Below, piece after piece: positions 8,930-36,284 of a DNA stretch of 64,000 nt. This stretch comes from Flavobacterium pectinovorum (GTDB lineage: Bacteria; Bacteroidota; Bacteroidia; Flavobacteriales; Flavobacteriaceae), in NCBI RefSeq assembly GCF_006438875.1, contig NZ_RCZH01000012.1, positions 1 to 64,000 of the forward strand, written 5' to 3'. The first letter of the stretch is position 1. Every line of letters starts with the position of its first letter. Below the pieces are notes generated by a model, which had not been told where the DNA came from, searched no databases, and was given only the letters and a program-made list of their open reading frames with translations. Both the position numbers and the translations under genes were made by a program.

Positions 8930-8963
8930 TTATTATGATAATTTTTCGTTTTAGGATTTTAGC

Positions 8964-9106: not shown

Positions 9107-9109
9107 TAT

Positions 9110-9966: not shown

Positions 9967-10004
9967 AATTACAATCTTTAGATGTTAGATAATGATTTGG
10001 TTGG

Positions 10005-10797: not shown

Positions 10798-10799
10798 CG

Positions 10800-11540: not shown

Positions 11541-11769
11541 GATTTCTTAATAATTACTGCCAACTTGTTTATATAAATGATAAAACTAGATAAAATTATC
11601 GGAAATGAGTTAGATATGTATGACTTTTAATTTAATTCACAAAAGTCTAAACATCAAGAACAGAGATGCATTTATAAAAGATTCTATAGCTGATTCCAAA
11701 AAGCCTGCTTTTATTAACTAAATAGATAATATATCAAGTGATTGTAATGATTTCTGATATAGTTCATAA
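11541..11769. other. intergenic, remnant of a junction site
   Basis: No gene is seen. ACTGCCAACTTG at about 11556-11567 resembles one edge of sites B-D (CTGCCAAC) and may mark the upstream limit of the cassette-like series. The rest is plain AT-rich sequence between two minus-strand transcription units. Confidence 0.35.
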
Positions 11770-15819: not shown

Positions 15820-15892
15820 ATTAAAAATCGATATTATTATTGTTTTAAGTCTTTACCTTATTTTGAGAAATAACCAATTATGATTGATAGTT

Positions 15893-16477: not shown

Positions 16478-16522
16478 AATAGATCTTGGGTTGTTTCATC
16501 TCTCTAGATTGATGATATATAA

Positions 16523-17077
16523 TTAATTATGTTTTCCCAAAATTGGTTTCAATTCTTTTGCGAGCTTATGCTCTAAAACTCCCATATAGTCAGCCATTTC
16601 GTGCTCAAATTCAAATATATTCATTCTCAAAGAAACATTTGTTCCTTTCGTCCAATAGAAAAGTTGGAGTCCTTGTGTTCCATGAACTTTATAATAGCCT
16701 AAGTGTTGAACTAGTCTTCCCCAAATTCCTTTCTTGACTTTACCAACATAGAGAACTCTACTATGTGGGAAATTCTTTTTGATAGCAGGTACGGCTTTTG
16801 AATTTTGGGTCAATTTGTATTTTGTGACTCTATTTACTATTTCTTCGGCAGAATGACCTGATACAATTTCAAAATAATAAAGACATGGCCCAGATATTTT
16901 TGTAACTATATCAAAAACATGTGAAAAATCACTTTCTTTTAAAACATTTACAAAATTGTAATCTTTCATTTCGAAACAGTCGATATCAAATTGATATATT
17001 TGCTTTGCCCCTTTTTCTGAAACATTTAGTAATGGCGCTATAGCACTTGTACTGAATTCTTTAATCCTATCGTTCAT
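16523..17077 (-). CDS. GIY-YIG-like nuclease protein
   Basis: The core reads CLYYFEI (position of GIY, residues ~65-71), then RVLYVGKVKKGIWGRLVQHL (residues 107-126; LYVG in place of YIG, with Arg121 as the expected catalytic Arg). A conserved-looking end contains LEHKLAKELKPILGKHN, where a Glu and the final Asn fit the family. The first 60 residues are extra. An AAGGAGC ribosome-binding site precedes the ATG, unusual in this phylum, where such sites are weak. It starts 18 bases after the PD-(D/E)XK gene, so both are probably on one transcript. Confidence 0.65.
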   Translation of the reverse strand: MNDRIKEFSTSAIAPLLNVSEKGAKQIYQFDIDCFEMKDYNFVNVLKESDFSHVFDIVTKISGPCLYYFEIVSGHSAEEIVNRVTKYKLTQNSKAVPAIKKNFPHSRVLYVGKVKKGIWGRLVQHLGYYKVHGTQGLQLFYWTKGTNVSLRMNIFEFEHEMADYMGVLEHKLAKELKPILGKHN

Positions 17078-17095
17078 TTTTTATAGCTCCTTTTA

Positions 17096-18106
17096 TTAAA
17101 TAATATTTTTTAAAAAGTGTAAATATCCTTCTAATCTTTCCAGTGTTTTTTCTTTTTCAATAATCATATCATCTGCACCTAACCAGTCTTTTTTATTCAC
17201 TAATGCTACAGTCATATATTTACCATTGCCGAATTTCGATGGTCGTTGAATTTTTAAAATGCCATATTCTTTCGCTTTATTGATTATTAAATTATGAAAC
17301 GTATTTCGTATTTCTGCCCTAGTGACATTGTCTGGCATTTCAACTTCGTCAGGATCTGTTGAAATTTTAAAGCATAATTTCCCTTCTTCAATTTGAAGAT
17401 ATGCTGGATAAATCCCCCAATAATCCCAGTTTAGTACTGCATTCCAAAAGCCACCGTTAGGATTGTTTACATAATTCCAATTTACTAATTTCATGTTTTT
17501 TTCTAAATGCTGAAAATATCCCTGCCAATCATTTCCATCCCATTTTCCAAGGACCTTTGTTTCAAATTGGTTATTAACGTTTTCTAAACGTGTTAGCCTT
17601 TCAAAAAAATCGATGAAAATATCATTGGTTATATTCGAATAATTAGATAATAATTTAATGAGATCTTGTCTATTATATATGGCAAACCCTTGTGTAATAA
17701 TATGTTTAAGACTAGTCAGCGACTCATTTCCTGTTTTCAGATAGATGCAGATAGGAGTTTGATAACCATTTTCATTGCACCATTTAATTGATAAAGTTTT
17801 GTAGCGTGTCAATTGATTAGAATGATGAGATGTATTCGTTTTGTCTTCTATAACCAATAAATATTTATCATTGATTTCTGCCCATACATCTATGTTTTGC
17901 CATTGTCTGCCAGCTTTTACTTTTACAATATCTTCATTGAAATTTGGTAATTGTTTATGGATTAATTGTTTGACAAAATCAGTTGCACAATTATGTATAT
18001 TTACGTCATGCTTTTTATTTTCAGGATCCGCATATTGCAATAACCAAGTGATGAAAGAATCTTGGTTTAATTCTTTAGTAGCGATTTCAAAAATGTTTGG
18101 TTTCAT
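17096..18106 (-). CDS. PD-(D/E)XK nuclease superfamily protein (PDDEXK_4 type)
   Basis: The 336-aa protein has DSFITWLLQYAD near the N-terminus, NIDVWAEI (D73) and LLVIEDKTNTSHHSNQLTRY, with the E87-D-K89 catalytic pair and QLTRY at 98-102. This is the classic PDDEXK_4 (Pfam PF14281) layout. The second half (residues 190-336) contains many Trp/Tyr residues and may bind DNA or a partner. Family members sit singly or in defence islands, and a direct role in cutting foreign DNA is likely. It follows the PIN-like gene by 24 bases. Confidence 0.8.
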   Translation of the reverse strand: MKPNIFEIATKELNQDSFITWLLQYADPENKKHDVNIHNCATDFVKQLIHKQLPNFNEDIVKVKAGRQWQNIDVWAEINDKYLLVIEDKTNTSHHSNQLTRYKTLSIKWCNENGYQTPICIYLKTGNESLTSLKHIITQGFAIYNRQDLIKLLSNYSNITNDIFIDFFERLTRLENVNNQFETKVLGKWDGNDWQGYFQHLEKNMKLVNWNYVNNPNGGFWNAVLNWDYWGIYPAYLQIEEGKLCFKISTDPDEVEMPDNVTRAEIRNTFHNLIINKAKEYGILKIQRPSKFGNGKYMTVALVNKKDWLGADDMIIEKEKTLERLEGYLHFLKNII

Positions 18107-18130
18107 GTATAAATTGTTCGTGAATTTGTT

Positions 18131-19324
18131 CTATGTATGTTTGAGTCCATTTTCAACTTGTCGTTTTAGTTCGTTTAAATTTTTTGCTGTCTCTCTGAAT
18201 AATCTAGCATCTTTTTTTAATTGCTTGAACCAATAGTCAACTGAGGCATTTAAACGCTGGTCGCGTGATAGAAGTATTTCATTATACAGAGCAGCAATAC
18301 AATGGCTAGAATCTAACACAATGCCACCAGAAGGAATTTTGCCAGCTGTGAATCCTTTTTCAAGGTCTTTAATAATTATGTAGTTACTCACACGTGTAAA
18401 AGTTGTTTGAGTATAAAATCTGTCTATTAAAGATTTCAAAATAGCTTTACAATCAGATATTGTTTGATTTTTTTGTGCAAACTTTTCTGCAAGTTCCTTG
18501 TCTAATGGTTTAACAGATAAACTTTTGTCACGCTCTACATAACTTTTAGTTGACCATTCTTTGACTATTTTGGGAAAGTCAATTATAGTTGCAGCCAAAT
18601 CTTCCCAGTATACAAATACTTGGTCGGCTGAGAAAGAAAGTTCTTCAAGGGAATACCCTTCAATAAGCATCTCTTTGTTTTTTTGAAGTGTAGTTATAGC
18701 ATTTTGGGGAACTTTATAACTTTTTTCTTCATATTCTATTTGTTGCTGTTTTAATTCCTCAATAGTTAATTCTGTCAAACTCTCAAAATAATCAATATGA
18801 GTATATTTTTTGGTTTTAATTGCATCTATTCTTTTTTCAATTTCTTCCTTTGGATTTTCCAATATTTGAGAATGAATTATTTGAGTTGCAAGTTTAGGTG
18901 CAATCACACCAATAAAACCTTTACTGCAATCATAGTCTTTGAGTGCAGCCAATTGTCCTAGTAAAGCAATGTATATTCTTGAAGAATTCGCTTTTAGAAA
19001 ATCCAACCTTTCCGTTTTAATTGTTCCACTCCAAGTATGTTCAATTAAAGCTAAAAAATCGTCTATAATGTAATACTCTTTTGAAGCCATCATTCGCTGT
19101 CCTCGGATAAGAGTATTTAATGCCCTAGCCATATTGTTTCTTTGATCAAGGTCTTTGTTAAGGGCTATTTCAATTACTCCGGCTGGGCTTGAAAAAACTT
19201 CAATTTCTCCACTCAAAGATTTCTCTAGTAAATATTTTCCAAGGTCTGTGTCAATCCAATTTGTCTCTTTTGGAGCAATATCGTTTAATGAGCAATTATC
19301 AATGTATATTTTTAGCGGTTTCAT
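18131..19324 (-). CDS. PIN-like ribonuclease domain protein with long insert
   Basis: The N-terminus IYIDNCSLNDI (Asp9), SSPAGVIEIAL (Glu52) and the distant C-terminal elements GIVLDSSHCIAAL (Asp338, His341) and ILLSRDQRL (Asp355) fit the split acidic site of PIN-like domains. Between them is a ~280-residue mainly helical insert (KEEIEKRIDAIKTKKYTH ...). PIN proteins usually cut RNA. It is the first gene of a compact set (PIN-like, PD-(D/E)XK, GIY-YIG-like) with gaps of 24 and 18 bases. A toxin-like or effector role is inferred. Confidence 0.6.
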   Translation of the reverse strand: MKPLKIYIDNCSLNDIAPKETNWIDTDLGKYLLEKSLSGEIEVFSSPAGVIEIALNKDLDQRNNMARALNTLIRGQRMMASKEYYIIDDFLALIEHTWSGTIKTERLDFLKANSSRIYIALLGQLAALKDYDCSKGFIGVIAPKLATQIIHSQILENPKEEIEKRIDAIKTKKYTHIDYFESLTELTIEELKQQQIEYEEKSYKVPQNAITTLQKNKEMLIEGYSLEELSFSADQVFVYWEDLAATIIDFPKIVKEWSTKSYVERDKSLSVKPLDKELAEKFAQKNQTISDCKAILKSLIDRFYTQTTFTRVSNYIIIKDLEKGFTAGKIPSGGIVLDSSHCIAALYNEILLSRDQRLNASVDYWFKQLKKDARLFRETAKNLNELKRQVENGLKHT

Positions 19325-19384
19325 TGGAGATTATTTTGTTTCGTTAGATATATCTTTTGGCGCAAACTCATCTGTGTTAGTTTT

Positions 19385-20356
19385 TTATAAATCGTATTTA
19401 GAATAATTCTGCATCATTAAGCTCTTAAGTTTTATTGCTTCATCATAAATTTCTCCTATATAATTATTTATTTGTGGAATTTGCTCTTGATACAAATCTA
19501 AATAATCAGTAAAAAACTTTGGATTGTCAAAATATATTGCGGATATCTCAAATGCTTCTTTTAACAGATCGACTATTTTAAAATCTATGTGATTAGCTTT
19601 TGCTATTTCATGATAATGTTCAAGAATATAGGAAATTTTAACAATATGGTGTGGATGGGTTCCTTCATTTAGATAAAAGGGCTCGATTTCAGTATCTGTT
19701 TTGAATTCTTTTTTATAGAATAATAAAATTGTTATTAGAATACCAGATAATCCAACAGCTAAAAGTTTAAAAACATCATCATTTGAATTTATGCTTTTTA
19801 ATTCACATAAATCAATAATCTTTAGACAAACAAATTGACAACCGTTTAAATCAGAATCATATTCAGAAATATGATTATACGAAATGAGGTTGCTAATATT
19901 TGAAATTTGATTATCAAATTGACCTTCTCTTTTCTGAACTAAATGGGCAAATTCATGGTAGTAAGTAAAAATTATTGAAGTTTGAAACATTAAATATTCA
20001 AGGTCAATACATTGTGATAAACTAAAATATCTTTTTAATCTATAATTTGTAAAAAATTTATTTTCATTTAATTTCTCGTTTAATTTAATAATTTGTTCTT
20101 TAGAAACATACATAATATAACTTCCATTATTGTAAGTTCCTCCAGAATTTACATCTTCTTTATCCCAATAAAAAAAATATGAATTTTCTAAACCGAATTT
20201 TGATGAATTCAATTCTAAATCATTTGTACAAAATTCAAAATAAGTTAAAAAAATGTCCTCAATAGGATTTCCTATTATGTTAAAAATATCCGATTTAGAT
20301 ATGGCAGTATTACGCAAAATGTTTTCTGAATTTTCGTTATAAAGACTTCTATTCAT
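19385..20356 (-). CDS. HExxH zinc metallopeptidase-like protein
   Basis: The 323-aa protein contains YYHEFAHLVQ (HEFAH, residues 134-138) and downstream HISEYDSDLNGCQF (Glu165/Asp169), a typical zincin triad arrangement. A hydrophobic helix (AVGLSGILITILLFY) lies at about 206-220. There is no signal peptide, so it acts in the cytosol or at the membrane. Similar stand-alone HExxH proteins appear in defence islands as effectors activated by partners. It is 61 bases upstream of the PIN-like gene on the same strand. Confidence 0.65.
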   Translation of the reverse strand: MNRSLYNENSENILRNTAISKSDIFNIIGNPIEDIFLTYFEFCTNDLELNSSKFGLENSYFFYWDKEDVNSGGTYNNGSYIMYVSKEQIIKLNEKLNENKFFTNYRLKRYFSLSQCIDLEYLMFQTSIIFTYYHEFAHLVQKREGQFDNQISNISNLISYNHISEYDSDLNGCQFVCLKIIDLCELKSINSNDDVFKLLAVGLSGILITILLFYKKEFKTDTEIEPFYLNEGTHPHHIVKISYILEHYHEIAKANHIDFKIVDLLKEAFEISAIYFDNPKFFTDYLDLYQEQIPQINNYIGEIYDEAIKLKSLMMQNYSKYDL

Positions 20357-20579: not shown

Positions 20580-20828
20580 TTATTCCTTGTCTAAATGAAA
20601 CTCAAAGTTGAATAATTCTGAGGGATGGATATTTAAACCTTTTGAAAGTTGTAACACTGATGAAAGTTGAATATTGGTTTCTCCTTTTTCAATTTTACTA
20701 ATATCACTATGATCGAGGTCGCATCTTTGTGCTAATTGCCTATAGCTTAAATTTTTTGCTGTTCGAAATTTCTCCAATTGCTTTCCAAATAATATTTGAA
20801 AATCTTTCTTGTCAAGACTGTTACTCAT
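20580..20828 (-). CDS. XRE-family helix-turn-helix regulator, 82 aa
   Basis: Reading from the ATG at 20828 (a TTG lies 7 codons upstream) gives a single HTH domain: FRTAKNLSYRQLAQRCDLD, HSDISKIEKGETNIQLSSV and LQLSKGLNIHPSELFNF. This is the canonical Cro/CI-type fold. It is first on the minus strand ahead of the HExxH protein and the nuclease cluster, so it may repress them. A 6-bp inverted repeat (GTGGGT/ACCCAC) 47 bases upstream is a candidate operator. Confidence 0.85.
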   Translation of the reverse strand: MSNSLDKKDFQILFGKQLEKFRTAKNLSYRQLAQRCDLDHSDISKIEKGETNIQLSSVLQLSKGLNIHPSELFNFEFHLDKE

Positions 20829-20874
20829 TGTTGTTAGTTGAATAAGCAATTTCAGTAGTTTTATAAAAAATAGT

Positions 20875-21440: not shown

Positions 21441-24400
21441 ATGAAAACTTTTTCATTAAATAAAGGGTTGGCGGCACTTTGGTATCCGTTTATTTTCGGG
21501 TTTTACCTTTTTTGCACGCCAGCCTTAGCACGGAATCCCTTGCGGTTTTCCGCTTTACAACAACAATTTCAAGTCACGGGTACCATTACCGATGGTACAA
21601 ATCCTCTTCCCGGAGTCAGCATTACAGTCAAAGGCCAGCAAAAAACGGTCTTTTCGGATTTTGATGGCAAATTTGCCATAAATGTATCTCATAACGACAC
21701 CCTGATTTTTACTTACCTTGGTTTTAAGACAGTCACAATTTCTGTTGGGGATCTCAAAATAATTAATGTGCAAATGCGGGAAGATGCGACCTCCTTATTG
21801 GAAGTCAAGATCAATGCCGGTTACTATTCTGTAAAGAACAGTGAACGCACCGGAAGCATTTCGAAAATCAGTTCAAAAGATATCGAAAAACAACCTGTCA
21901 CCAATGTGCTTGCAACTATGCAGGGACGAATGGCAGGTGTTAATATTACTCAAAACACAGGTGTGGCTGGAGGCGGTTTCGATATACAAATAAGGGGACA
22001 GAACAGTTTGCGCTCTGATGGGAACAGACCGTTATATATCGTTGATGGTGTTCCTTATTCCTCAGATGCCGTAGGTTCTGATCTGACAGGGATTGTTCTG
22101 CCCGGTGCAACAAGTCCTCTAAGCAGTATCAATCCAACAGAGATAGAAAGTATTGAAGTCCTTAAAGATGCAGATGCAACGGCGATTTATGGTTCAAGGG
22201 GAGCCAATGGAGTGGTACTTATCACCACTAAAAAAGGCAAAGAGGGCAAAACAAGATTTACTGCAAATGTATCGGGTGGATTTGGCTCAGTGACACGCCT
22301 TATGGAACTTATGAATACACAGCAGTATCTGCAAATGCGCAGAGAAGCGTTCATCAATGATGGCATTTCTTATGGTCCAACCGATTATGATGTCAATGGA
22401 ACATGGGATCAAAACCGTTATACAGATTGGCAAGAAGTACTCATTGGAGGAACTTCAGAGATCAATGATGTGCAGGCATCGGTATCAGGAGGCTCATCCG
22501 GGACACAATTCCTTATCAACGGCAATTTTCATAAGGAAACCACGGTTTTTCCCGGCAACTACAATTACCGTAAAGGAAATCTCCATGCGAATCTGAACCA
22601 TGAATCCGAAAATAAAAAATTCCACATCAATTTTTCTATGGGCTACACTGCTCAGGAAAATAACCAGCCAGGAATTGATATAACCCAACAAGTTATTCTT
22701 CTACCACCCAATGCTCCGGCATTATATGATGAAAATGGCAATTTAAACTGGGAAAACAGCACTTGGAATAATCCCATGAGTAATCTGGAAGGAAAATACA
22801 CTTCAAGATCTAATGACCTTTTTGCCAATAGTCTATTATCCTATAATATCCTGCCGAGTTTAATTGCTAAAGCGAGTTTTGGTTTTACCGATACGCGTTT
22901 TGATGATAGTCGGACTCAGCCATCCACCATGTATGATCCAGCTTATGGATTAGGTAGTGAATACTCCTCCATTTATGTCAATAACACTACAAGAAAATCA
23001 TGGATTATGGAACCCCAAATATCATGGTCGAAAAAATTTGGCAGAGGAAAAACCGAAATCCTCATTGGAAGTACATTTCAACAGCAGACAGCAAACCAAT
23101 TGGTACAGGAAGCGGACGGATTTAGTAGCAACAGCCTGATCTATAACCTTTCCTCAGCATTTCATGTATTTGACTTGGTAGATAGTGAATCGATCTATAA
23201 ATATCAGGCTTTTTTCGGGAGGGTTAATTTTTCGTGGAATGAGAAGTACATTGTAAACCTTACCGGACGCAGGGATGGTTCAAGCAGATTTGGTCCCGGA
23301 AGGCAGTTCGCAACTTTTGGAGCGATTGGAAGCGCATGGCTGTTTTCAAATGAAACATTCGTAAAAGAGAATCTTGGTTTCTTAAGTTTTGGAAAATTAA
23401 GAGCCAGTTATGGTACCACCGGAAATGACCAGATTGGTGACTACCAGTTTTTAGATACCTATGGTTCTTCGGGAAACAACTATGGTGGTATAAATGGTTT
23501 GGAACCGACACGTTTGTTTAATCCCAATTTTGGTTGGGAAATCAATAAAAAATTGGAGTTGGCACTGGAAACAGGTTTTTTAAAAGACCGTATTTTTATA
23601 ACGGCGGGCTGGTACAGCAACCGTTCTTCCAACCAATTGGTAGGAATTCCTCTTCCTGCTACAACTGGATTTAATTCGATACAGGCAAATTTAGATGCCA
23701 CAGTACAAAACAGAGGGATCGAGCTTACCCTTAGAACGGTAAATTTTCAAAAAGAATCCTTTAACTGGACAAGCAGTTTTAATTTGACAATCGCCCGAAA
23801 TAAACTATTGTCTTTTCCTGATCTGAAAGGATCAACTTATGAGAACCAATATGTAATAGGCCAGCCTTTAAACATTAAGAAATTATACCACTATACGGGA
23901 ATAGATCCCACAACAGGAATTTACCAGTTTGAGGATTTCAATGCAGACGGTTTAATTACATCGCCACAGGATAAGCAGGCTATCCGTGATTTGAATCCAA
24001 AATATTTCGGAGGATTTCAAAATACCATTACCTATAAAAACTGGCAATTGGATTTTCTTTTTCAGTTTGTCAATCAGCTGAACTATAACGGATCATATAG
24101 TACTGGACTACCCGGCGCTATGGCCAATCAGCCTGTGCAGGTCATGAACCACTGGCAAAACCCTGGAGATAAGGCCACCTATCAACAGTACACCACAGGG
24201 GTAAATAGTGAAGCTATGGATGCATTTTACAAGTTTTATGCCAGTGATGCCATGATAACGGATGCCTCTTACATACGGCTTAAAAATTTGTCATTGTCAT
24301 ATACTATCCCTGAGCAGTGGCTTAAAGGAGTAAAATGCCGACTGGTATTTCAGGGACAGAATCTTTTCACGATCACTTCCTATAAGGGTGCTGACCCCGA

Positions 24401-24467
24401 ATCCAGATTCACAACAAGCCTTCCACCTTTAAAGGTATTTACAACCGGGCTTCAGCTTACTTTTTAA
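21441..24467 (+). CDS. SusC/RagA-family TonB-linked outer-membrane transporter
   Basis: The 1008-aa protein has a signal peptide, then a carboxypeptidase-like beta domain (VTGTITDGTNPLPGVSITVK, FSDFDGKFAIN). Next come the SusC plug (GRMAGVNITQ, IQIRGQNSLRSDGNRPLYIV, DADATAIYGSRGANGVVLIT) and a C-terminal barrel ending in TGLQLTF. It imports large ligands across the outer membrane using TonB energy, together with the SusD lipoprotein 18 bases downstream. The substrate is unknown. The neighbouring peptidase and small-peptide genes suggest a peptide rather than a glycan. It is shorter than SusC 2 in this window and has no STN domain. Confidence 0.9.
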   Translation: MKTFSLNKGLAALWYPFIFGFYLFCTPALARNPLRFSALQQQFQVTGTITDGTNPLPGVSITVKGQQKTVFSDFDGKFAINVSHNDTLIFTYLGFKTVTISVGDLKIINVQMREDATSLLEVKINAGYYSVKNSERTGSISKISSKDIEKQPVTNVLATMQGRMAGVNITQNTGVAGGGFDIQIRGQNSLRSDGNRPLYIVDGVPYSSDAVGSDLTGIVLPGATSPLSSINPTEIESIEVLKDADATAIYGSRGANGVVLITTKKGKEGKTRFTANVSGGFGSVTRLMELMNTQQYLQMRREAFINDGISYGPTDYDVNGTWDQNRYTDWQEVLIGGTSEINDVQASVSGGSSGTQFLINGNFHKETTVFPGNYNYRKGNLHANLNHESENKKFHINFSMGYTAQENNQPGIDITQQVILLPPNAPALYDENGNLNWENSTWNNPMSNLEGKYTSRSNDLFANSLLSYNILPSLIAKASFGFTDTRFDDSRTQPSTMYDPAYGLGSEYSSIYVNNTTRKSWIMEPQISWSKKFGRGKTEILIGSTFQQQTANQLVQEADGFSSNSLIYNLSSAFHVFDLVDSESIYKYQAFFGRVNFSWNEKYIVNLTGRRDGSSRFGPGRQFATFGAIGSAWLFSNETFVKENLGFLSFGKLRASYGTTGNDQIGDYQFLDTYGSSGNNYGGINGLEPTRLFNPNFGWEINKKLELALETGFLKDRIFITAGWYSNRSSNQLVGIPLPATTGFNSIQANLDATVQNRGIELTLRTVNFQKESFNWTSSFNLTIARNKLLSFPDLKGSTYENQYVIGQPLNIKKLYHYTGIDPTTGIYQFEDFNADGLITSPQDKQAIRDLNPKYFGGFQNTITYKNWQLDFLFQFVNQLNYNGSYSTGLPGAMANQPVQVMNHWQNPGDKATYQQYTTGVNSEAMDAFYKFYASDAMITDASYIRLKNLSLSYTIPEQWLKGVKCRLVFQGQNLFTITSYKGADPESRFTTSLPPLKVFTTGLQLTF

Positions 24468-24485
24468 CTTCTTAATTTAAACATT

Positions 24486-25916
24486 ATGAAAAAGAAATCA
24501 TTTTTACGTTTTATCCAAAACTATAAAATAAAAATAGTAAACCACAGACTTCTAATAGGATTACTTGTGTCCTGTATGATACTTCTAGGTGGCTGTGATA
24601 ATTTTGTTGAGGTTGACCTTCCGTCCTCACAACTAACAGCAAGCGCCGTTTTTCAGGACAGAGCTACTGCCAATGCAGCGATGGTAAGCATTTATGCTAA
24701 AATGCGCGACGAGGGTATTTTAAGCGGGAGTGTCGCAGGAATCTCCAATCAAATGGGAAACTATGCAGATGAGCTTGTGTATTACGGCGATATTTCCGGC
24801 ACAACCCGAAACTTTTACAACAATACGCTACTTGCTTCCAATTCGGAGGTCTTTAACTGGTGGAGCAGCAGTTACAACCAAATTTATGCTGCAAATGCCA
24901 TTATTGAAGGAGTGAATGCTTCTACGGCGCTCAATACTGTAGATAAAAACCAGCTTACAGGAGAGGCTTTGTTTGTACGATCACTGTTGCATTTTTATCT
25001 TCTTAATCTCTATGGGGATGTGCCTTATATCACCACAACAGACTATCAGCAAAATAAAGTGGCGCACAGAATGCCTTCTGCTGAGCTGTATTCCCATATC
25101 ATAAGTGATCTGGAACTGGCCGTTTCATTATTACCGGAAGATTATATTTCCAGTGACCGTGTGCGTCCAAATAAATCCGTAGCGATGGCATTATTGGCAA
25201 GGGTTTATCTTTATAAAGGCATGTGGGCGGAAGCATCAAATGCGGCTTCATATACCCTAAACAATACAGGAATGTACACTTGGGAGGCCAATCTGGACGC
25301 CATATTTCTCAAAGAAAGTACCACAACGATTTGGCAGTTTATGCCTAGAGCGGATGGGCAGAATACACAGGAAGGCGAAACATTCATCTTTACGGCACCA
25401 CCGCCATCACTTGTTGCTTTAAGTACTGAACTTATAAGTGAATTTGAACCGGGTGACCAGCGAAAGGATCATTGGACTCATGCCATTACAAACGGAACAG
25501 ACACTTGGTATCATGCCAATAAGTACAAACAGAAATCAAATACTTCTAGTTCATTAGAGTATTCTATAGTATTTCGTTTGGCCGAGCAATACCTGATTCG
25601 CTCTGAAGCCCGCGCACAGCAAGGTGATCTTATAGGCGCGAAAGAAGATTTGGATAAAATCAGAAACACAGCCGGACTTGCTGGAACCACTGCCGTGAGC
25701 CAGCAAGATATACTTAGTGCCATATTACATGAGAGAAGAGTGGAATTTTTCACAGAATTGGGACACCGCTTTTTCGACCTGAAAAGAACGAATCATTTGG
25801 ATGATGCATTATCATCTGTAAAAGTAGGATGGAATACTACAGACAGATTGTTACCACTGCCTGAATCAGAACTTACGCTGAATCCGAATCTTAATCCTCA
25901 AAATCCGGGCTACTAA
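24486..25916 (+). CDS. SusD/RagB-family surface lipoprotein
   Basis: The 476-aa protein has a lipobox (VSCMILLGGCDNF, Cys at residue ~37) after an unusually long basic N-terminus, which suggests the real start could be internal. The body shows the SusD features: an N-terminal helical half (NAAMVSIYAKM, ALFVRSLLHFYLLNLYGDVPYIT) and the C-terminal EQYLIRSEARAQQGD, LHERRVEFFTELGHRFFDLK. It caps the SusC barrel and binds the ligand. It is followed directly by the S9 peptidase gene (1-base gap). Confidence 0.9.
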   Translation: MKKKSFLRFIQNYKIKIVNHRLLIGLLVSCMILLGGCDNFVEVDLPSSQLTASAVFQDRATANAAMVSIYAKMRDEGILSGSVAGISNQMGNYADELVYYGDISGTTRNFYNNTLLASNSEVFNWWSSSYNQIYAANAIIEGVNASTALNTVDKNQLTGEALFVRSLLHFYLLNLYGDVPYITTTDYQQNKVAHRMPSAELYSHIISDLELAVSLLPEDYISSDRVRPNKSVAMALLARVYLYKGMWAEASNAASYTLNNTGMYTWEANLDAIFLKESTTTIWQFMPRADGQNTQEGETFIFTAPPPSLVALSTELISEFEPGDQRKDHWTHAITNGTDTWYHANKYKQKSNTSSSLEYSIVFRLAEQYLIRSEARAQQGDLIGAKEDLDKIRNTAGLAGTTAVSQQDILSAILHERRVEFFTELGHRFFDLKRTNHLDDALSSVKVGWNTTDRLLPLPESELTLNPNLNPQNPGY

Positions 25917-25917
25917 A

Positions 25918-28566
25918 ATGAGACCTAATAATATAAAATATAACAGGAAAACTGATACTCTCAGAAAGAGGGTGCCAGTTTTTTATATAGTGCTCATCGT
26001 TTTGCTGATCTCATTTTTTGGTTTTGCGCAAAACAATAATAAAAAACAGCTTACGGCTGTCGATTACCAGTTATGGAGTTATCTCAAAGCCGAGAAACTA
26101 TCAGAAGAGGCAAAGTGGGTAAGTTTTTCTGTTTCGTATGAAAATGGCAGCGACACTTTATTTGTTAAAAACACTAAAGCAACAAGAACCTTTAGTTTTC
26201 CCGGAGCAGGCAAAGGAGAATTTATCGGTGACAATTGGTTTTGTATGATGAGTTCAAAGCAAGAATTGAAAATTGTCAACTTGCATACTTCCAAACAAGA
26301 AACTTTACAAGAGGTAATCAAGTATGATTTAAGTACGGAGGCTCACGAAATAATCATCTTGAAAAAAAGTGATGCCGGGAAAAAACAGTTACTAATAAAA
26401 GTTTTAGGAACTGATAAATCTATCATTTTAAGTGATATTGGTAACTACTGGTACAATCAAAAGACCAGTGCAATAGTATATACTACAATGTCCGGGAATG
26501 CAACAACAATTGCCATCATGAATCTACGCGATAAGACAACAAGTGTAATAGCCAGTTGTATAAATGCGGTTGAATATTCCGATATCGTTTGGCAGGAAAA
26601 TGGAAATTCCATTGCTTTTTTAGAACAGCCTCTGGACAATAAAACAGCTCGTACCTACGTCGGTTATTACAAAATTTCGGAACATGAATTATCCATTTTC
26701 AATCCTGCTTTACAAGAAGATTTTCCAATAAACATGCAAATTATTTCCTCGTCTTTTGCCAATCTACAGATTGCTAAGGATGGACAAAGAATATTTTTCG
26801 GATTACAGAAGACTATTATACCACCCGATATTACTCAGGTTCAAATTTGGAGCACGGCAGATAAATTTATTTATCCATCAAAAGTCCAGATTGACGGCTG
26901 GGATAAAATAGCCAAAGTAGCGGTATGGTGGCCCCGGCAGAATAGGTTTAGCTGTATTACTAACAATGAACTCCCGCACCTGATGTTAAGCGGAGACCAA
27001 AAACAAGCCTTGCTTTACAATCCACAACAATATGAACCGCAGGCAAATTATGATGGCAATTTGGATTTTTATATTTCGGAACTGGAAACGGGAAATCGGA
27101 AATTAGTGCTTCAAAATCAGTCAGGAAATTCCCAGTGGACTTCTGTGTCTCCCGGCGGAAAGTATGTGGTTTATTTTAAAAGCAACCATTGGTGGGTTTA
27201 TGATATACTGACGGGGCTGAACAGGAATCTCACCAAAGAACTTGGAGTGTTTTTTTCAGATAATGAGTCAGACTGTCCTGAAGAAGCAAACCCTTTTGGC
27301 AATCCAGGATGGATGGAAGGAGATAAAACACTTTTTGTTTATGACAAGTATGATATTTGGAGCCTTGCCAGTGACGGTTCAACTTCTTTACGATTGACTA
27401 GGGGACGCGAAAATAAAAATACCTTTAGGATTGTTTCCCAATCTAAGGAAGGGTCCGATAAAATGAATTATGATGGTACTTGTAAAGGACTAATTGGATC
27501 TAATGACAGATTACTGATTAAAACCGAAGCACTGGAACATACAGGATATTGTTTTTGGGATAAGGAAAATGGTTTACAGCCTTTATTGGACAAGAAAATG
27601 CACACCAGCCAGTTTATAACCTCTGCAAAGAGTGAGGCTTACGTTTATGTTGAGGAAAACTTTAATTTACCACCGAGATTACTCGTAAAAGAAAGCTTAA
27701 CTTCAAAAGAAAAAGTACTGTTTCAAAGCAACCCACAGCATTTTAAATACAATTGGGGAAGCTCCAAGCTGATAACCTATACCAACTCCAATGGCACGGT
27801 TTTAAATGGCGTTTTATTCTATCCGGCAAATTATCATGCTACTACAAAATATCCTATGGTGGTGCATGTGTACGAAAAGCAATCAAAAGAATTGTATAAT
27901 TATGTAACCCCATCACAGAGAAACCCAACAGGATTTAATATTGCCAATTTTACCTCAAAAGGATATTTCGTGTTTTTACCTGATATTGCTTATGAAATTG
28001 GAAATCCGGGATCTTCGGCAGTAGATTGTGTTGTTTCCGCTACCAGAAAAGTCATTGCCAGTGAATCATCCATTGACAGTACTCGAGTAGGTCTTACTGG
28101 TCATTCTTATGGCGGGTATGAAACGGATTACATAATCACGCAGACTAACATGTTTAAAGCCGCAGTGGCAGGCGCAGCCATTACAGATTATGTAAGCGGT
28201 TATCTGTATATATCGGATATGCAAAAGCCTAATTTTTGGCACTATGAATTCGGTCAATTAAGAATAGGTAAATCACTGTATGAAAATTATGCAGGATACC
28301 TGCATAATTCTCCCATATATCATGCCGACAAAGTAAGCACACCTCTGTTGTCATGGGCTGGAGAACAGGACTACCATGTGCATTATTATCAGAGTATTGA
28401 GTTTTATCTGGCTTTAAGGCGCCTTGGTAAAACCAATACGATGTTGCTTTATCCAGGAGAAGGTCATGTGCTCTCAGATCCTATTCAGCAACAGCATCTT
28501 ACCCAAAGGATTGAACAGTGGTTTGACTATTATTTAAAAGGAGAAAAAAAGCCACAATGGTTTTAA
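25918..28566 (+). CDS. S9-family (prolyl oligopeptidase-like) serine peptidase
   Basis: The 882-aa protein has an N-terminal membrane anchor or signal (VPVFYIVLIVLLISFFGFAQ), then a long beta-propeller-like region (residues ~60-600), then an alpha/beta-hydrolase domain. The catalytic Ser is in TGHSYGGYETD, and the active-site His is in PGEGHVLSD near the C-terminus. It is probably a periplasmic or inner-membrane dipeptidyl/oligopeptidase that trims peptides brought in or released by the SusC/SusD pair. Its start overlaps the SusD stop region, so the three genes form one operon. Confidence 0.85.
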   Translation: MRPNNIKYNRKTDTLRKRVPVFYIVLIVLLISFFGFAQNNNKKQLTAVDYQLWSYLKAEKLSEEAKWVSFSVSYENGSDTLFVKNTKATRTFSFPGAGKGEFIGDNWFCMMSSKQELKIVNLHTSKQETLQEVIKYDLSTEAHEIIILKKSDAGKKQLLIKVLGTDKSIILSDIGNYWYNQKTSAIVYTTMSGNATTIAIMNLRDKTTSVIASCINAVEYSDIVWQENGNSIAFLEQPLDNKTARTYVGYYKISEHELSIFNPALQEDFPINMQIISSSFANLQIAKDGQRIFFGLQKTIIPPDITQVQIWSTADKFIYPSKVQIDGWDKIAKVAVWWPRQNRFSCITNNELPHLMLSGDQKQALLYNPQQYEPQANYDGNLDFYISELETGNRKLVLQNQSGNSQWTSVSPGGKYVVYFKSNHWWVYDILTGLNRNLTKELGVFFSDNESDCPEEANPFGNPGWMEGDKTLFVYDKYDIWSLASDGSTSLRLTRGRENKNTFRIVSQSKEGSDKMNYDGTCKGLIGSNDRLLIKTEALEHTGYCFWDKENGLQPLLDKKMHTSQFITSAKSEAYVYVEENFNLPPRLLVKESLTSKEKVLFQSNPQHFKYNWGSSKLITYTNSNGTVLNGVLFYPANYHATTKYPMVVHVYEKQSKELYNYVTPSQRNPTGFNIANFTSKGYFVFLPDIAYEIGNPGSSAVDCVVSATRKVIASESSIDSTRVGLTGHSYGGYETDYIITQTNMFKAAVAGAAITDYVSGYLYISDMQKPNFWHYEFGQLRIGKSLYENYAGYLHNSPIYHADKVSTPLLSWAGEQDYHVHYYQSIEFYLALRRLGKTNTMLLYPGEGHVLSDPIQQQHLTQRIEQWFDYYLKGEKKPQWF

Positions 28567-28594
28567 AAAAAGAAGACAGCCAATCATAAAAAAA

Positions 28595-28623
28595 CAATGC
28601 AGTTCCCATAAGGAACTGCATTG
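28595..28623. terminator. bidirectional terminator between S9 peptidase and DUF6520 gene
   Basis: The stem CAATGCAGTTCC/GGAACTGCATTG with a CATAA loop has a T-run on the minus-strand side and sits between convergent genes. It can end both transcripts. Confidence 0.8.
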
Positions 28624-28644
28624 CCATTTCTACGAGCAATGGAA

Positions 28645-28926
28645 TCAAGGTTTGTAAACCGGAACCTTACATTCGTTAGCCGAATTTTTACCAAATAATT
28701 GCGCACCAGTTGGCAGCAAACCAACTCTACAGATGGTTCCATTATTTGTTGTTGAACACATATCATGCTCCTCACAAGAGGTTGCTTCAGCGTTCAATTT
28801 GATGTACCCACGAATTGGCGCTGCTGCTTTAGAACGCACATTCATGGCATGGGTTGTATAAGCGCTTGCTATCGCAAGAGCAAATACTGCAACAGGTAAA
28901 ACCTGTTTTGCAAAATTTGTTTTCAT
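28645..28926 (-). CDS. DUF6520 small exported cysteine-containing protein
   Basis: This 93-aa protein has an N-terminal signal (QVLPVAVFALAIASAYTTHA) and a mature part with four cysteines (SCEEHDMC, TICRVG, NECKVP). The pattern fits DUF6520, a Bacteroidota family of small exported proteins. The spacing of the Cys residues suggests disulfides, which fits the MauE/DoxX-like protein encoded 96 bases upstream. It faces the SusC-SusD-S9 operon and may be its cargo or substrate; that is inference. Confidence 0.75.
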   Translation of the reverse strand: MKTNFAKQVLPVAVFALAIASAYTTHAMNVRSKAAAPIRGYIKLNAEATSCEEHDMCSTTNNGTICRVGLLPTGAQLFGKNSANECKVPVYKP

Positions 28927-29021
28927 GATTTATAATTTTAATGTTAGTGATCTACTCTTTCGCAGGTTTTCGATCTTTTCCCTGACACAGCGCTGTATAT
29001 TTTCATATAGTGATTTCAGTT

Positions 29022-30533
29022 TTATTTTTGATACGAGTTTGTGAGTTTCCTGCTTAATTTATAATGAACCAAATACGGTCCTATAAATCCATAAAAATTA
29101 TCATTGAGAATAAAGAAATTTTTTAGCTTTTCATTTTTAATATGGTAGATGTAAAAGCTGCCCTGATAGGAATTGGTATTGAGATCGTATATATCAATTA
29201 CACTGGCATCCTTCCACATTTCAGTAGGTTCATATTTTCCTAACAGTGCTGAATTGACAAATAATAAATTTTTATAAACGGCGCTTGTTTTATTGACAAT
29301 TACGGGAGGTGCTGAAAATTTCATTTCCTGCTGGCTTGCCACGGTAGTCACTTTAATTTGAGCTTTACTAATGGTGTCGATGGTCTTGCCACGATAGATT
29401 AAATTAAGCGTACTGTCTGCTACGATAAACTCATTACGGTAGAGATAAATGTATACGAGCTTCTGAATGTCTTGGTCATAATGCAAGGTTCCATCAACGT
29501 CAAAAATTCCATCAATCTGTTTCTGTAACAGGCTTGTATTGAAACGTGTTTTTGGTTTGCTGCCAAAATGAAGAGACCCCAATACACTTTCCCCATTTAT
29601 ATTACTGTTGGAGCGGAATGCCAATGTGAGCGAATCCATGAGCTGATAATGGGAAAAAGTTGTAGACCCGTTCCATTTTACAAAGCCCTTCCAGTTGTTT
29701 ATATTTCCTTTAAAAATAACAGGAACATATCCGTCAATAAGATAAAAATTCGGAGGTGAAACTCGGATTTGGACAGACTGAAATAAAAAATCTGTCCTAT
29801 TGGGATGAATCTTAAATTCATTTTTGTTCTGTAAGGCTGTATCTAACATTGTAACAAGTAAAGGCGCAGTATGACTGCCCAGGTATATCTTGTCTTTTGA
29901 AGCTCCGGCAAAATAATAGGAACTAAACTTTAGATCGATGTCATTCACTTTTACAGCATTTCCGGGAAAACGACGAACAAAATTATTTCGGTGATGAATG
30001 ATGTCTTCTGACAACATAAATAGCAAGGCAACAATACCAATACTAAAAAGAACAGTTAACAAAAAGGCACTGGCGAGTGCAGCAGGCTTTGAAATTAGGT
30101 GCACTTTTGGCACCCCTACGGCCAATAGCAGGATACCTGCTGCTGCCAGCATTATGAAAACTAAATTAAAAAAAAGATGTTCTGTCCATCCTAACTTTTC
30201 AAGAATTCCTCCACAGGAACAAGGGACAAAGGAGCTGTAATTTAAAATAATGAAAATGTATGCGGTAAACATAATCATTAGACCCAGAGCGCCAAAAAGA
30301 CCAATAATCTTCCATCTTTTTGAAACGATGAGCAATGCGATAAATAATTCAAGCGCAGGTACAATCCATGCAATTACCCCTGCAAAAGCACTTAATAAAG
30401 GGGACTGCCCCAATTGTACGCGGAAGTTCTCAAAGTCAAGCAATTTACTTACCGCCGCATATACAAATAGCACTACATATAGGAAGGAGATTACTTCTAT
30501 AAAAATATACTTATATCGTAGGTTAAATTTCAT
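29022..30533 (-). CDS. MauE/DoxX-like membrane protein with C-terminal periplasmic domain
   Basis: The 503-aa protein begins with a four-helix MauE/DoxX-like bundle (SFLYVVLFVYAAVSKLLDFENF, given here in two parts: SFLYVVLFVYAAVSK and LLDFENF). It includes a conserved FVPCSCGG Cys motif at about residue 104 and an extra helix around 155-172. Residues ~190-503 form a periplasmic beta-rich domain. MauE proteins are linked to disulfide formation in exported proteins. Here the likely client is the Cys-containing DUF6520 protein transcribed just downstream. A truncated second copy lies at 30621-30738. Confidence 0.75.
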   Translation of the reverse strand: MKFNLRYKYIFIEVISFLYVVLFVYAAVSKLLDFENFRVQLGQSPLLSAFAGVIAWIVPALELFIALLIVSKRWKIIGLFGALGLMIMFTAYIFIILNYSSFVPCSCGGILEKLGWTEHLFFNLVFIMLAAAGILLLAVGVPKVHLISKPAALASAFLLTVLFSIGIVALLFMLSEDIIHHRNNFVRRFPGNAVKVNDIDLKFSSYYFAGASKDKIYLGSHTAPLLVTMLDTALQNKNEFKIHPNRTDFLFQSVQIRVSPPNFYLIDGYVPVIFKGNINNWKGFVKWNGSTTFSHYQLMDSLTLAFRSNSNINGESVLGSLHFGSKPKTRFNTSLLQKQIDGIFDVDGTLHYDQDIQKLVYIYLYRNEFIVADSTLNLIYRGKTIDTISKAQIKVTTVASQQEMKFSAPPVIVNKTSAVYKNLLFVNSALLGKYEPTEMWKDASVIDIYDLNTNSYQGSFYIYHIKNEKLKNFFILNDNFYGFIGPYLVHYKLSRKLTNSYQK

Positions 30534-30620
30534 TGTAATGTAATTGAAAATTTGTGATGTAAAATTGTATAAAATAAATAATTAACTCTTGTCAATTCGG
30601 GATAATCGTATGCCAAAAAC

Positions 30621-30738
30621 GGACAGTAACTGCCATCTTTGACTTTAGTTGAATAACAAAATTTTCAAAATCTAATATTTCGCTTATGGCTGCATATACA
30701 ATAGCAAAATATAAAGCCGTCAGATTATATTGATTATA
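30621..30738 (-). pseudogene. remnant of a second MauE/DoxX-like gene
   Basis: On the minus strand, one frame reads TALYFAIVYAAISEILDF followed by ENFVIQL. This aligns with LYVVLFVYAAVSKLLDF and ENFRVQL at the N-terminus of the intact MauE-like protein. No start codon or further homology remains. It is a fragment of a related gene, showing that this cassette once had another copy. Confidence 0.6.
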
Positions 30739-32117: not shown

Positions 32118-32429
32118 TTAAATCCAATGATAGGGTTTGTCCTTGCGGTTGAGGTAGCAGTACATTTCTTCCTTTTTGAGTTCGGGAAAGAATTTAAGGG
32201 CATCTTCAATGGCATAGTTGGGCAGAAAGTAAATCTCTTCACGAACTGCCTTAATTACTTTTTCACGACCATAAAAACGCACGATTTCGTCAATTTGATC
32301 CTGACCTCCACGCTCAACAATACGCGCAATAACCATTTTATATCCTCCATGCCAGTCAATACTGTCGAATCTAAAATCCCAAAAGAATTTAGGATGAAGA
32401 TTGGGTATGTTTTTAGTTAACTTCTTCAT
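32118..32429 (-). CDS. DUF6922-like protein, candidate antitoxin
   Basis: The 103-aa protein has PKFFWDFRFDSIDWHGGYKMV, given here as PKFFWDFRFDSI and DWHGGYKMV, then VIARIVERGGQDQIDEIVRF and KVIKAVREEIYFLP. These match the DUF6922 pattern, a winged-helix-like protein that accompanies AbiEii toxins in this phylum. It follows the AbiEii-type gene by 48 bases. As the presumed DNA-binding partner it probably represses the pair. Confidence 0.7.
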   Translation of the reverse strand: MKKLTKNIPNLHPKFFWDFRFDSIDWHGGYKMVIARIVERGGQDQIDEIVRFYGREKVIKAVREEIYFLPNYAIEDALKFFPELKKEEMYCYLNRKDKPYHWI

Positions 32430-32477
32430 TGTTTTTTATATAATGGTTAGTATCAAATATAAGCAATTTCTGCTGAA

Positions 32478-33167
32478 TTACCTGCAAAAAACTCTCTTTT
32501 TATTGGGGTTAATTGGTAAATCCTGGCTTTCTGATTTAAATTTATATAAAGGATTTTTTACTGCCAGTTCCAGACGGTTTTTGATGTTTTTCCAGTTCTG
32601 CTCTTTTTCTTTGAGCATGTCTACACCTTCAAATGTGGTAATCTTGTCATAAGTATTAAGGCCTCCGCAAGCCCAGTACGGATCTTTGTCATATTTTCTC
32701 TGATAGGCTTGCAGATAAAACTTTAGAGGTTCTTGCTCAAGCATAAAGTACATGTCGACAAAATCCTTGTATCTGGTACCGCTCTGATGGATTGCATGGA
32801 GTTTCATTGCCCCAATATCTTCATTGGAAATCATGCGGACTCCTTCCGTTGTTTCCACAGAATTCAGAATAGGATAATTGTGTGTAACAATATCGACTTT
32901 TATATTATCGATGAAGGTAAGAACTGTGTTATTGAAGAGTCTGCTTATCTCTTTATTTGCGTTGTAAGTGACATGTAAATATTTGAGCATCGCCTGCGGA
33001 TCAAAATCTTTTGTTGTAAAAAGATCTATGTCTACCGATAAGCGGTGTACTAATCTTAAGACCAGCGCCGTACCACCAACTAATATGTGGTCTTTCAAAT
33101 TTTCATCTTTCATAAGCCTTTGGAGAAGTTCCCACATCTCCGAAGTAACAGTTTCTTTGCAGAGCAT
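32478..33167 (-). CDS. AbiEii/AbiGii-family nucleotidyltransferase toxin
   Basis: The 229-aa protein has the family motifs ILVGGTALVLRLVHRLSVDI and DLFTTKDF (GG...HR.S.DIDLF) near residues 30-55, then KVDIVTHNYPIL and the ISNEDIGAMKLHAIHQSGTR helix. AbiEii enzymes transfer nucleotides to RNA (tRNA) and stop growth, giving phage protection or plasmid stability. Here the toxin gene comes first and the DUF6922 partner second. It is cargo of the mobilizable element and could stabilise it. Confidence 0.85.
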   Translation of the reverse strand: MLCKETVTSEMWELLQRLMKDENLKDHILVGGTALVLRLVHRLSVDIDLFTTKDFDPQAMLKYLHVTYNANKEISRLFNNTVLTFIDNIKVDIVTHNYPILNSVETTEGVRMISNEDIGAMKLHAIHQSGTRYKDFVDMYFMLEQEPLKFYLQAYQRKYDKDPYWACGGLNTYDKITTFEGVDMLKEKEQNWKNIKNRLELAVKNPLYKFKSESQDLPINPNKKRVFCR

Positions 33168-33387: not shown

Positions 33388-33825
33388 ATGGAAAATGAAG
33401 AAAAAAAGAACCCGCATAAAGGAGGCAGGCCTTCCAAAATAGATCCCGCCGTCCATCGCTATTCCATCAGTCTTACTGCAGAAGAAAATGCACGTTTCCT
33501 GACTCTTTTTGAAACATCAGGAATGCATGTAATGGCTCACTTTATTACAGCGTGTGTTTTTCAAAAAGGGATCAAAACAGTTAAGATCGATAAAGCTACA
33601 ATGGATTACTATATGCGACTGACTTCCTTTTACAGCCAGTTTCGGGCTGTTGGGGTTAATTACAATCAAGTTGTGAAGATTTTATATCAAAAATTTTCCG
33701 AAAAGAAAGCTTCGGCATATCTGTACAAACTCGAAAAGCAGACAATTGAATTAGCTGTTATATCCAAAAAGATAATACAGCTCACAGAGGAATTTGAAGA
33801 AAAGCATATGAAAAAAGAGTCTTGA
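33388..33825 (+). CDS. mobA: MobA-like relaxosome accessory protein
   Basis: This 145-aa protein begins with a basic GGRPSKIDPAVHRYSISLTA segment (ribbon-helix-helix-like), then helices (NARFLTLFETSGMHVMAHFI, RLTSFYSQFRAVGVNYNQVV). This is the pattern of MobA/MobC accessory proteins of Bacteroidota mobilizable elements, which bind the transfer origin and load the relaxase. The relaxase gene that should follow is gone: only a start with five codons remains. The iteron-like repeats upstream are its probable binding site. Confidence 0.8.
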   Translation: MENEEKKNPHKGGRPSKIDPAVHRYSISLTAEENARFLTLFETSGMHVMAHFITACVFQKGIKTVKIDKATMDYYMRLTSFYSQFRAVGVNYNQVVKILYQKFSEKKASAYLYKLEKQTIELAVISKKIIQLTEEFEEKHMKKES

Positions 33826-35039: not shown

Positions 35040-36284
35040 TCAATCGTCTAATAAATGAGTAAACATCCGCTGTTCAAGTTTGTGCATATCCTCGCTGAGT
35101 TTTTGTTCAACCACCTTAGCATAGATTTGAGTGGTGCGAATGCTTGTATGTCCCAACATTTTGGATACACTCTCAATTGGTACGCCGTTACTCAGAGTAA
35201 CGGTCGTTGCAAAAGTATGGCGAGCGATATGAAAGGTTAGTGTTTTAGTTATACCACTAATGTCAGCGATCTCTTTAAGGTATCCGTTCATTCGCTGGTT
35301 TGAAATTACGGGGAATACTGTTCCGTTATTGAGAGCCCTTGGATCATCACGGTATATTTCCATTAAATCCGTCGCCTGAGGCAGTAGAGGCACGCGTACC
35401 CCTGTGTCTGTCTTTGCCCTGCTTGTAGATATCCATAGACCACCGTCTATGCCTGTAACAATCTTGTTTGGAGTTAGTTCAGCGAGCTCAATATACGAAA
35501 GACCCGTATAACAGCTGAACAGAAACATATCCCTAACATGTCTAAGACGTTCAATAGGAAACTCTTTGTTTGTCAATGCTGTAAGCTCTTTACCGTTCAA
35601 TGAATGCCGTTCCACTTTGTCAAAATGTTTTTTGAAGCTGGCAAAAGGATCTTTAGCAAGCCAATCCAGCTTGACAGCCATATTTATCATTTTTCGCAGC
35701 CTTTCGATATGCTTCATGATGCCGTTGTTATTAAGTGGCTTCTGGTGATCCTTGGGAACATAATTAAATAGATAGCGTTCAAAATCCAGAATAAATTTGT
35801 ACTTAAGCTGCGAAAGGGCAATATCATTTCTGTAGAGTTTCTCCCTCAGGAATATTTTTAAATACCGTTGCGTGGTATGGTAATTCTTCATGGTTCCCTG
35901 AGCAAGTTTATGTCTCTGCTGTTCATTATGATATTCCATCAGAGCCATTAGAGTTGGAGTTGTGTTGTCCGTGCCCATTACACGGTCGCGTATCGCAGGG
36001 CCGTCTATAGCAGCATCATTCAGTAGCATCTGCTGATAGGTATTTATGATTTTTGCCTTGAACTGGTTAAGAAAAATGTTGAGTTCAGTAATTTCTTTGC
36101 GGTTTCCCTTAGCCATGCCTTTTCTTTCATCCCATTCAGCTGCCTTAACGGAACGCTTGACTGAAATCTCAGTCCGTTTTCCATTTACCGTTACTCGGGC
36201 ACAGATAGGAGCCGAACCTTGGATCGTGGTTTTTTGGGTCTTTAGGTAAAAGAGGACCCCGAATGTAATTCCTGCTGTTTTCAT
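35040..36284 (-). CDS. tyrosine recombinase/integrase of the CTnDOT type
   Basis: The 414-aa protein has an Arm-type N-terminal domain (RVTVNGKRTEISVKR), an SAM-like core-binding domain (residues ~100-210) and a catalytic domain. The catalytic domain contains HIARHTFAT (H-x-x-R) and LGHTSIRTTQIYAKV (His and nucleophile Tyr). The position normally holding Arg I reads CYTGLSYIEL, with Ser in place of Arg. The same change is known in IntDOT of CTnDOT. Its gene lies beside a tRNA-Pro gene, a usual integration target. The neighbouring HTH_17 gene is the expected excision factor. Confidence 0.9.
   Translation of the reverse strand: MKTAGITFGVLFYLKTQKTTIQGSAPICARVTVNGKRTEISVKRSVKAAEWDERKGMAKGNRKEITELNIFLNQFKAKIINTYQQMLLNDAAIDGPAIRDRVMGTDNTTPTLMALMEYHNEQQRHKLAQGTMKNYHTTQRYLKIFLREKLYRNDIALSQLKYKFILDFERYLFNYVPKDHQKPLNNNGIMKHIERLRKMINMAVKLDWLAKDPFASFKKHFDKVERHSLNGKELTALTNKEFPIERLRHVRDMFLFSCYTGLSYIELAELTPNKIVTGIDGGLWISTSRAKTDTGVRVPLLPQATDLMEIYRDDPRALNNGTVFPVISNQRMNGYLKEIADISGITKTLTFHIARHTFATTVTLSNGVPIESVSKMLGHTSIRTTQIYAKVVEQKLSEDMHKLEQRMFTHLLDD

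Follow-up and report, generated by a model that had tools for sequence, protein, structure and literature searches.

Why should an operon for an outer-membrane importer and a peptidase be faced by genes for a small four-cysteine protein and its presumed oxidase? The question is raised by a locus of Flavobacterium pectinovorum, located in a 64,000-nucleotide stretch of contig NZ_RCZH01000012.1 (hereafter the window). Profile searches confirmed the five genes proposed in a first-pass annotation of this DNA, with small corrections. On the plus strand lie a SusC/RagA-type TonB-dependent outer-membrane transporter of 1008 amino acids (aa) (21441-24467; TIGR04056, 727 bits, cut-off 368), a SusD-type lipoprotein of 476 aa, whose lipobox LGGC was read directly (24486-25916; PF14322 and PF07980, above cut-off), and an S9 (prolyl-oligopeptidase family) peptidase of 882 aa with a signal peptide and the motif GHSYGG (25918-28566; PF00326, 104.7 bits). 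The minus strand encodes DUF6520, a small, putatively exported protein of 93 aa with four cysteines (28645-28926; PF20130, 32.6 bits, cut-off 25.4), and a MauE protein of 503 aa with a CSCGG loop (29022-30533; PF07291, 105.9 bits); its MauE domain had been recognised, while the beta-propeller fused behind it had been overlooked, as had the regulators, the conjugative-element setting, the occurrence outside the genus and the replacement of S9 by redoxins or other peptidases. A small XRE-type helix-turn-helix (HTH) regulator gene, divergent from SusC (20580-20849, minus strand; PF01381 HTH_3, 44.1 bits), is part of the same picture. The reading that we tentatively favour is a mobile circuit in which a small disulfide-bonded protein is made by one half (MauE and DUF6520, the maker half) and recaptured by the other (SusC, SusD and S9, the taker half).

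A profile built on the four MauE proteins of the same genome was searched against 121 Flavobacterium genomes, 50 of which contain matches. The 84 loci examined comprise 80 retrieved matches, four being split genes, and the four of the genome itself; partial or broken cases (G027:C7, G075:C94, G083:C4, G141:C12 and G099:C1 near 345 kb) were left out. In all 84 loci DUF6520 is located downstream of MauE-propeller and is faced by S9, full-length in 77 and truncated in 7; SusD is present in 77, SusC in 76 and the complete five-gene set in 76. The stops of DUF6520 and S9 are separated by a median of 66 bp (77 loci), with outliers up to 6.9 kb (L099). Multiple, diverged sets are frequent, with six in genome G017 and four in the F. 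pectinovorum genome (the window, C23, C24 and C2), where the C2 locus has two DUF6520 genes and retains S9 only as a 3' fragment. In a different locus (L089:8460-10884) a single MauE gene is followed by five consecutive DUF6520 genes.

The association was also evaluated in the opposite direction. MauE was found within 1 kb of 24 of the 25 DUF6520 matches from 60 relatives, the lone exception being below cut-off, and within 3 kb of 71 of the 78 S9 matches of at least 500 bits, in a search scoring at most 7 candidates per genome. As a control, the 34 SusD genes of the F. pectinovorum genome were inspected: MauE lies within 10 kb of the 3 belonging to these loci and of none of the other 31. The view that the genes make up one system is borne out by the position of DUF6520 beside MauE and by its presence, with a facing S9, at every MauE-propeller locus; the co-occurrence check suggested in the first-pass annotation did not find DUF6520 mostly without MauE or SusC/SusD. 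A scan of named genomes, considering the best 80 of 527 relatives, returned almost exclusively Flavobacterium, including an F. johnsoniae strain with a relative (L251); the other matches were Flavivirga, Aequorivita, one metagenome-assembled genome each of Marixanthomonas and Chitinophagaceae, and two records with less exact names.

The maker half was characterised by aligning 91 DUF6520 and 80 MauE homologues. All 91 DUF6520 proteins match PF20130 at E <= 0.1 and all retain the four cysteines; 82 contain exactly four, and 9 have one or two extra. The DUF6520 of the window begins, as read from the sequence, with a Sec-like signal of the typical kind, and Ala22 within it is invariant in all 91. 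In MauE both cysteines of the CxC motif (C105, C107) are conserved in 80/80 proteins; together with the invariant DUF6520 cysteines, they are what MauE-made disulfides would require. The MauE domain covers approximately residues 10-135 and is followed by the beta-propeller (AlphaFold2 mean pLDDT 89.9), for which Foldseek found propeller matches with a best E of 5e-9, but with TM-scores of only 0.3-0.4 of the query. Five long helices are predicted; CSCGG lies between helices 3 and 4, and the propeller comes after helix 5. By the positive-inside rule, both the CxC loop and the propeller would face the periplasm. Certain relatives encode the MauE and propeller parts as separate genes. Pfam and NCBIfam profiles revealed no thioredoxin-like partner (MauD) among the five genes of the window. 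NVEALA-type precursors were considered as DUF6520 relatives and rejected, as a Pfam scan of the 91 proteins contained no such family and no literature was found.

In the taker half, the catalytic residues of S9 are kept in 70 aligned homologues (Ser 70/70, Asp 69/70, His 70/70), and the enzyme is therefore probably active. The S9 sequence, read directly, shows a signal peptide but lacks a lipobox, so that a periplasmic site of action, following uptake, is probable. TonB-dependent receptors, to which SusC belongs, are known as importers. Of the two directions of transport left open in the first-pass annotation, outward movement through SusCD is thus unlikely, and uptake is the better half of the guess. 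As in Sus, polysaccharide utilisation and RagAB loci, SusC and SusD are associated with a presumed TonB-dependent uptake and with a degrading enzyme in the operon; here, however, no glycoside hydrolase was detected among the five genes by profile scans, the S9 peptidase taking the place of a glycan-degrading enzyme, while a unit for a small cysteine protein and its presumed oxidase faces the operon, and conjugation genes often adjoin.

The strongest indication of what the importer handles came from outside the genus. A search of the phylum detected MauE in at least 40 of 395 genomes at E 1e-25, a lower bound since only 3 candidates per genome were scored. Among the 64 matches listed, 32 fall outside Flavobacterium, and 20 stretches, containing 22 of these, mostly the best of each genome, were chosen; contig ends cut three of them (L291, L292, L302). 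SusC and/or SusD face MauE or the propeller gene in 19 of the 20, the exception being L302. The DUF6520 profile built here matches the small protein of L283-L288 (weakly in L288); of six further small proteins compared with Pfam, five match DUF6520 at E < 0.01, two of them above cut-off. The small protein of L290 has no Pfam DUF6520 match, and none was seen in L289. The enzyme on the taker side, in contrast to these conserved partners, changes family. It is S9 in four stretches (L283-L286, split across two frames in L286), a Met-zincin (DUF4953) in one (L287) and a redoxin/thioredoxin in eleven (L288, together with a subtilase; L289, below cut-offs; L290; L294-L301), while in the remaining four it was either not assigned or cut off; the candidate in L293 has no Pfam match. 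L285 has an additional aspartyl protease gene. Judging from these families, the exchanged enzyme, where identified, is limited to protein cutting or disulfide reduction, and either activity could open up a stapled protein. This exchange among peptidases and thiol oxidoreductases, with DUF6520 next door, is the main reason for proposing that a protein with disulfide bonds is handled on the SusCD side.

The known MauE/MauD pair of methylamine utilisation has in common with these loci the MauE domain with its CxC and, in most of the distant loci examined, a redoxin, encoded there in the facing operon; it differs in that the five genes of the window include neither a methylamine dehydrogenase nor a redoxin (profile scans), the propeller is fused to MauE, and the client would be a protein of 93 aa. 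A fusion of about 800 aa, in which a pyridoxal phosphate (PLP)-dependent aminotransferase is joined to an acetyltransferase-like domain, was noted in 16 Flavobacterium loci (L137:14141-16570), and the same fusion was recognised by Pfam at L287:13738-16149.

The two halves usually have their own regulatory genes. SusC and MauE are both available at 75 loci. At 60 of these a divergent HTH-like open reading frame (ORF) lies no more than 1.3 kb upstream of SusC, the search seeds having been taken from the same loci as counted; 9 of the others have only other ORFs there and 6 none. The 66 ORFs picked from 130 candidates match HTH_26 in 44 cases and HTH_3 in 38. At 26 loci, chosen for this feature, MauE is preceded by the gene of an AraC-type regulator (HTH_18 in 26/26, PAS_9 in 12, HAMP in 6). 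With regulators usually present on both sides, the halves are probably under separate control. The regulators found are of the XRE and AraC types only, with no peptide receptor governing excision or transfer among them.

Many loci are linked to conjugation genes. VirD4, MobB, MobC and a 96-aa gene are located upstream of MauE at many of them, and in two (L168, L169) an intact TraG and more tra genes lie beyond SusC, and in these complete elements the module is cargo between mob and tra. MobB relatives gave 101 matches, some partial, in 45 of the 121 genomes. MobB is within 10 kb of 29 of the 84 MauE loci, versus 0.8 expected at random, and within 50 kb of 41, versus 3.8 (assuming 4.6 Mb genomes); conversely, MauE lies at most 10 kb from 28 of the 64 closer MobB. 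Seven conjugation hallmark genes were also scored, and one or more of them occur in 52 of the 84 loci and in 10 of the 20 stretches, a raw count uncorrected for background. Where hallmark genes are present, the module often appears to be cargo of a Bacteroidota conjugative element. Relatives of MobB, MobC, TraG, TraJ and RteC, found at many loci, are shared with CTnDOT-type conjugative transposons; a DUF6520 module between mob and tra, on the other hand, is not known to us from CTnDOT. Near the window locus only a MobC gene adjoining the module (33388-33825, plus strand; PF19514, 222 bits) and a tyrosine recombinase gene (35040-36284, minus strand; PF00589, PF13102, PF17293) were found, which together are probably what is left of a mobile element. 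Plasmid-borne copies were looked for and discarded, as the window's MauE protein has no match at E 1e-10 in the plasmid collection.

In the circuit proposed, DUF6520 would be exported through its Sec-type signal peptide, and the membrane-bound MauE would oxidise its four cysteines to two disulfides. SusD would capture the stapled protein, whether it comes from the same cell or from a neighbour with a matching copy, and SusC would import it; in the periplasm it would then be cut by S9, while in relatives a redoxin or another peptidase would open it. With a regulator usually present for each half, making and taking could be set separately. As to its purpose, self-recognition or signalling for the element seems to us likelier than nutrition. 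A wider generalisation is much more doubtful, namely that elements across Bacteroidota combine a stapled protein of their own, SusCD and an opening enzyme into a self-recognition circuit, which senses neighbours and controls transfer or competition; we know of no peptide signalling through an outer-membrane importer in this phylum. The PhrI-RapI-ImmR system of ICEBs1 also features an element-borne small exported peptide, a proposed re-import and an XRE-type regulator, but it belongs to another phylum and uses another importer, no Rap/TPR receptor was identified here, and a response of conjugation to the present module is hypothetical. DUF6520 gains fixed partners and a testable role. The data suggest that certain SusCD importers, a group generally presumed to take up glycans as food, act on a protein encoded in their own genome, and the module, a frequent conjugative-element cargo in environmental Bacteroidota, may shape who receives such elements. 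No description of this gene set was found in the literature: a full-text search, with subscription journals and preprints largely outside its coverage, returned no paper on DUF6520, and none relevant for MauE together with SusD, a 'Maue' match being an author's surname.

Several observations weigh against a make-and-recapture circuit. An outer-membrane exit route for DUF6520 was not found, and the protein may reside in the periplasm; its predicted fold is not confident (pLDDT 71.6), with no structural match at E 0.001. The solved structure nearest to SusC is 8aa4 (E 5e-108), a glycan SusC, ahead of the peptide importer RagA (E 3e-61). Pairwise identities of the module parts covary (Spearman 0.48-0.89; 70 loci, host relatedness uncorrected), which speaks for the circuit, but the correlation of DUF6520 with the N-terminal part of S9 (0.48) is below that with SusC (0.55), its partial value is about 0, and the two proteins track each other no better than shared descent predicts. 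The halves are also found alone. The 7 loci lacking a full S9 and SusD keep the maker half and only a piece of S9; L166 has a taker half without a maker, and the same holds for L167 over the 3 kb that remain before its contig ends; in L165 MauE is missing and DUF6520 is reduced to a remnant. Separate loss of the halves fits a shared-good or signalling system and, equally, gene decay. L164, a further candidate for a taker without a maker, was discarded, as its contig stops 889 bases behind S9.

Some of these points favour a rather unlikely alternative, by which DUF6520 is a fixed small subunit or inhibitor of the SusCD-enzyme complex, folded by MauE, while SusCD imports an outside peptide or glycan. 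Strict linkage would be explained with no need for DUF6520 to cross the outer membrane, accessory proteins are known to join SusCD complexes, and the covariation is general rather than specific to S9. Yet genes for a complex often share an operon, and here the maker faces the taker at all 84 Flavobacterium loci examined, usually with its own regulator; moreover, the taker enzyme switches family while DUF6520 and MauE stay, and SusCD-S9 persists with no DUF6520 in L166 and perhaps in L167.

The frequent multiple, diverged copies can be read, with still lower probability, as a sign of antagonism: DUF6520 would be a bacteriocin-like peptide made by the element, with SusCD and S9 or redoxin as entry route and detoxifying immunity. 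Fast divergence agrees with this, DUF6520 and the N-terminal part of S9 being the fastest-diverging parts (mean identity in the 70 intact loci 0.31 and 0.30, versus 0.57 for SusC). The best NCBIfam score of S9 is for the lasso-peptide isopeptidase model (NF033523), and the lasso isopeptidase AtxE2 shares with it the S9 fold, a neighbouring TonB-dependent receptor and perhaps the opening of a constrained peptide; but the score of 108.9 bits is far below the cut-off of 400, solved structures of ordinary S9 peptidases are nearer (E 2e-21) than AtxE2 (E 2e-10), and the constraint here would be cysteine pairs, not a lariat. No lasso precursor, cyclase or known enzyme for ribosomally synthesised and post-translationally modified peptides is present among the five genes, S9, DUF6520 and MauE have no PADLOC match at E 0.001, and importing one's own toxin would be an odd form of immunity.

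It is very improbable that the module shuttles a scarce metal in the manner of a small peptide metallophore, the metal being freed by proteolysis or reduction after uptake: a self-made ligand, TonB-dependent uptake and a release enzyme are the anatomy of such systems, but 40 of the 91 DUF6520 proteins have no histidine after residue 30, no histidine is invariant, the four cysteines look paired, and no metal gene is found among the five. Finally, an ordinary SusC-SusD-S9 peptide-uptake operon lying by chance next to unrelated redox genes, conceivable in a genome with so many SusD genes, can practically be dismissed, being already contradicted by the absence of MauE near 31 of the 34 and by the linkage at 84/84 and 19/20 loci.

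The make-and-recapture circuit leaves aside a peculiarity of the truncated S9 genes. Six of them start within two codons of a single point just before GHSFGG (L020:8796, L091:10068, L132:9419, L098:9435, L103:10064, L085:9752); the decayed S9 of L155 agrees with this point and the 5' piece of L154 ends at it (L154:11001), while the S9 of L101 is truncated at another position. In S9 and MauE trees the six forms are scattered, most of them beside intact genes (in the S9 tree L020 is nearest to L103 and L102; the MauE node of L091 is unsupported), and because they sit apart the break must have arisen at least five times. Inspection by eye identified the partner as TraG, at the same codon, in L020, L091, L132 and L101, as TraG elsewhere in L098, a TraN-like gene in L103 and a chromosomal gene in L085. 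The obvious candidate would be a nuclease or recombinase acting at a specific site, but neither was found, and no recombination core shared between the S9 and TraG breakpoints was visible by eye. An attachment site of an integrative and conjugative element within S9 was rejected, since in both L168 and L169 S9 is whole up to the end of the stretch, with tra genes beyond SusC; for the same reason the truncated forms look like deletions. Swapping of modules at the GHSFGG site was likewise discarded, as identity matrices of the 70 intact loci revealed no clear mosaic there.

Two details of the window required correction. The hairpin between the converging S9 and DUF6520 genes (28593-28625), previously taken for a bidirectional terminator, does have a strong predicted fold on either strand (z -5.8 and -6.1), but the terminator scan was positive on the minus strand only; as the T run is present on that strand alone, it is a clear terminator for DUF6520/MauE and a possible one for S9. 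The end set at 30738 lies 205 bases beyond MauE, and the extra stretch contains a relic, the 5' end of a second MauE (30646-30699, minus strand; tblastn E 6e-6, 13/18 residues identical), left by an earlier copy or by an exchange.

Further features surround the module. A minus-strand cluster (7994-20356) adjoining it is a possible defence island; besides a phospholipase D-like and a PD-(D/E)XK protein it encodes one of 1349 aa, which matches a STAND-type NTPase at a score under the cut-off. On the other side, a DUF6922 and AbiEii-like pair (32118-33167) is probably a type IV toxin-antitoxin system. Between 336 and 6155, Rhs-repeat-like fragments recognised by eye, the first of which has no Pfam match, alternate with two near-identical IS1-type transposase genes.

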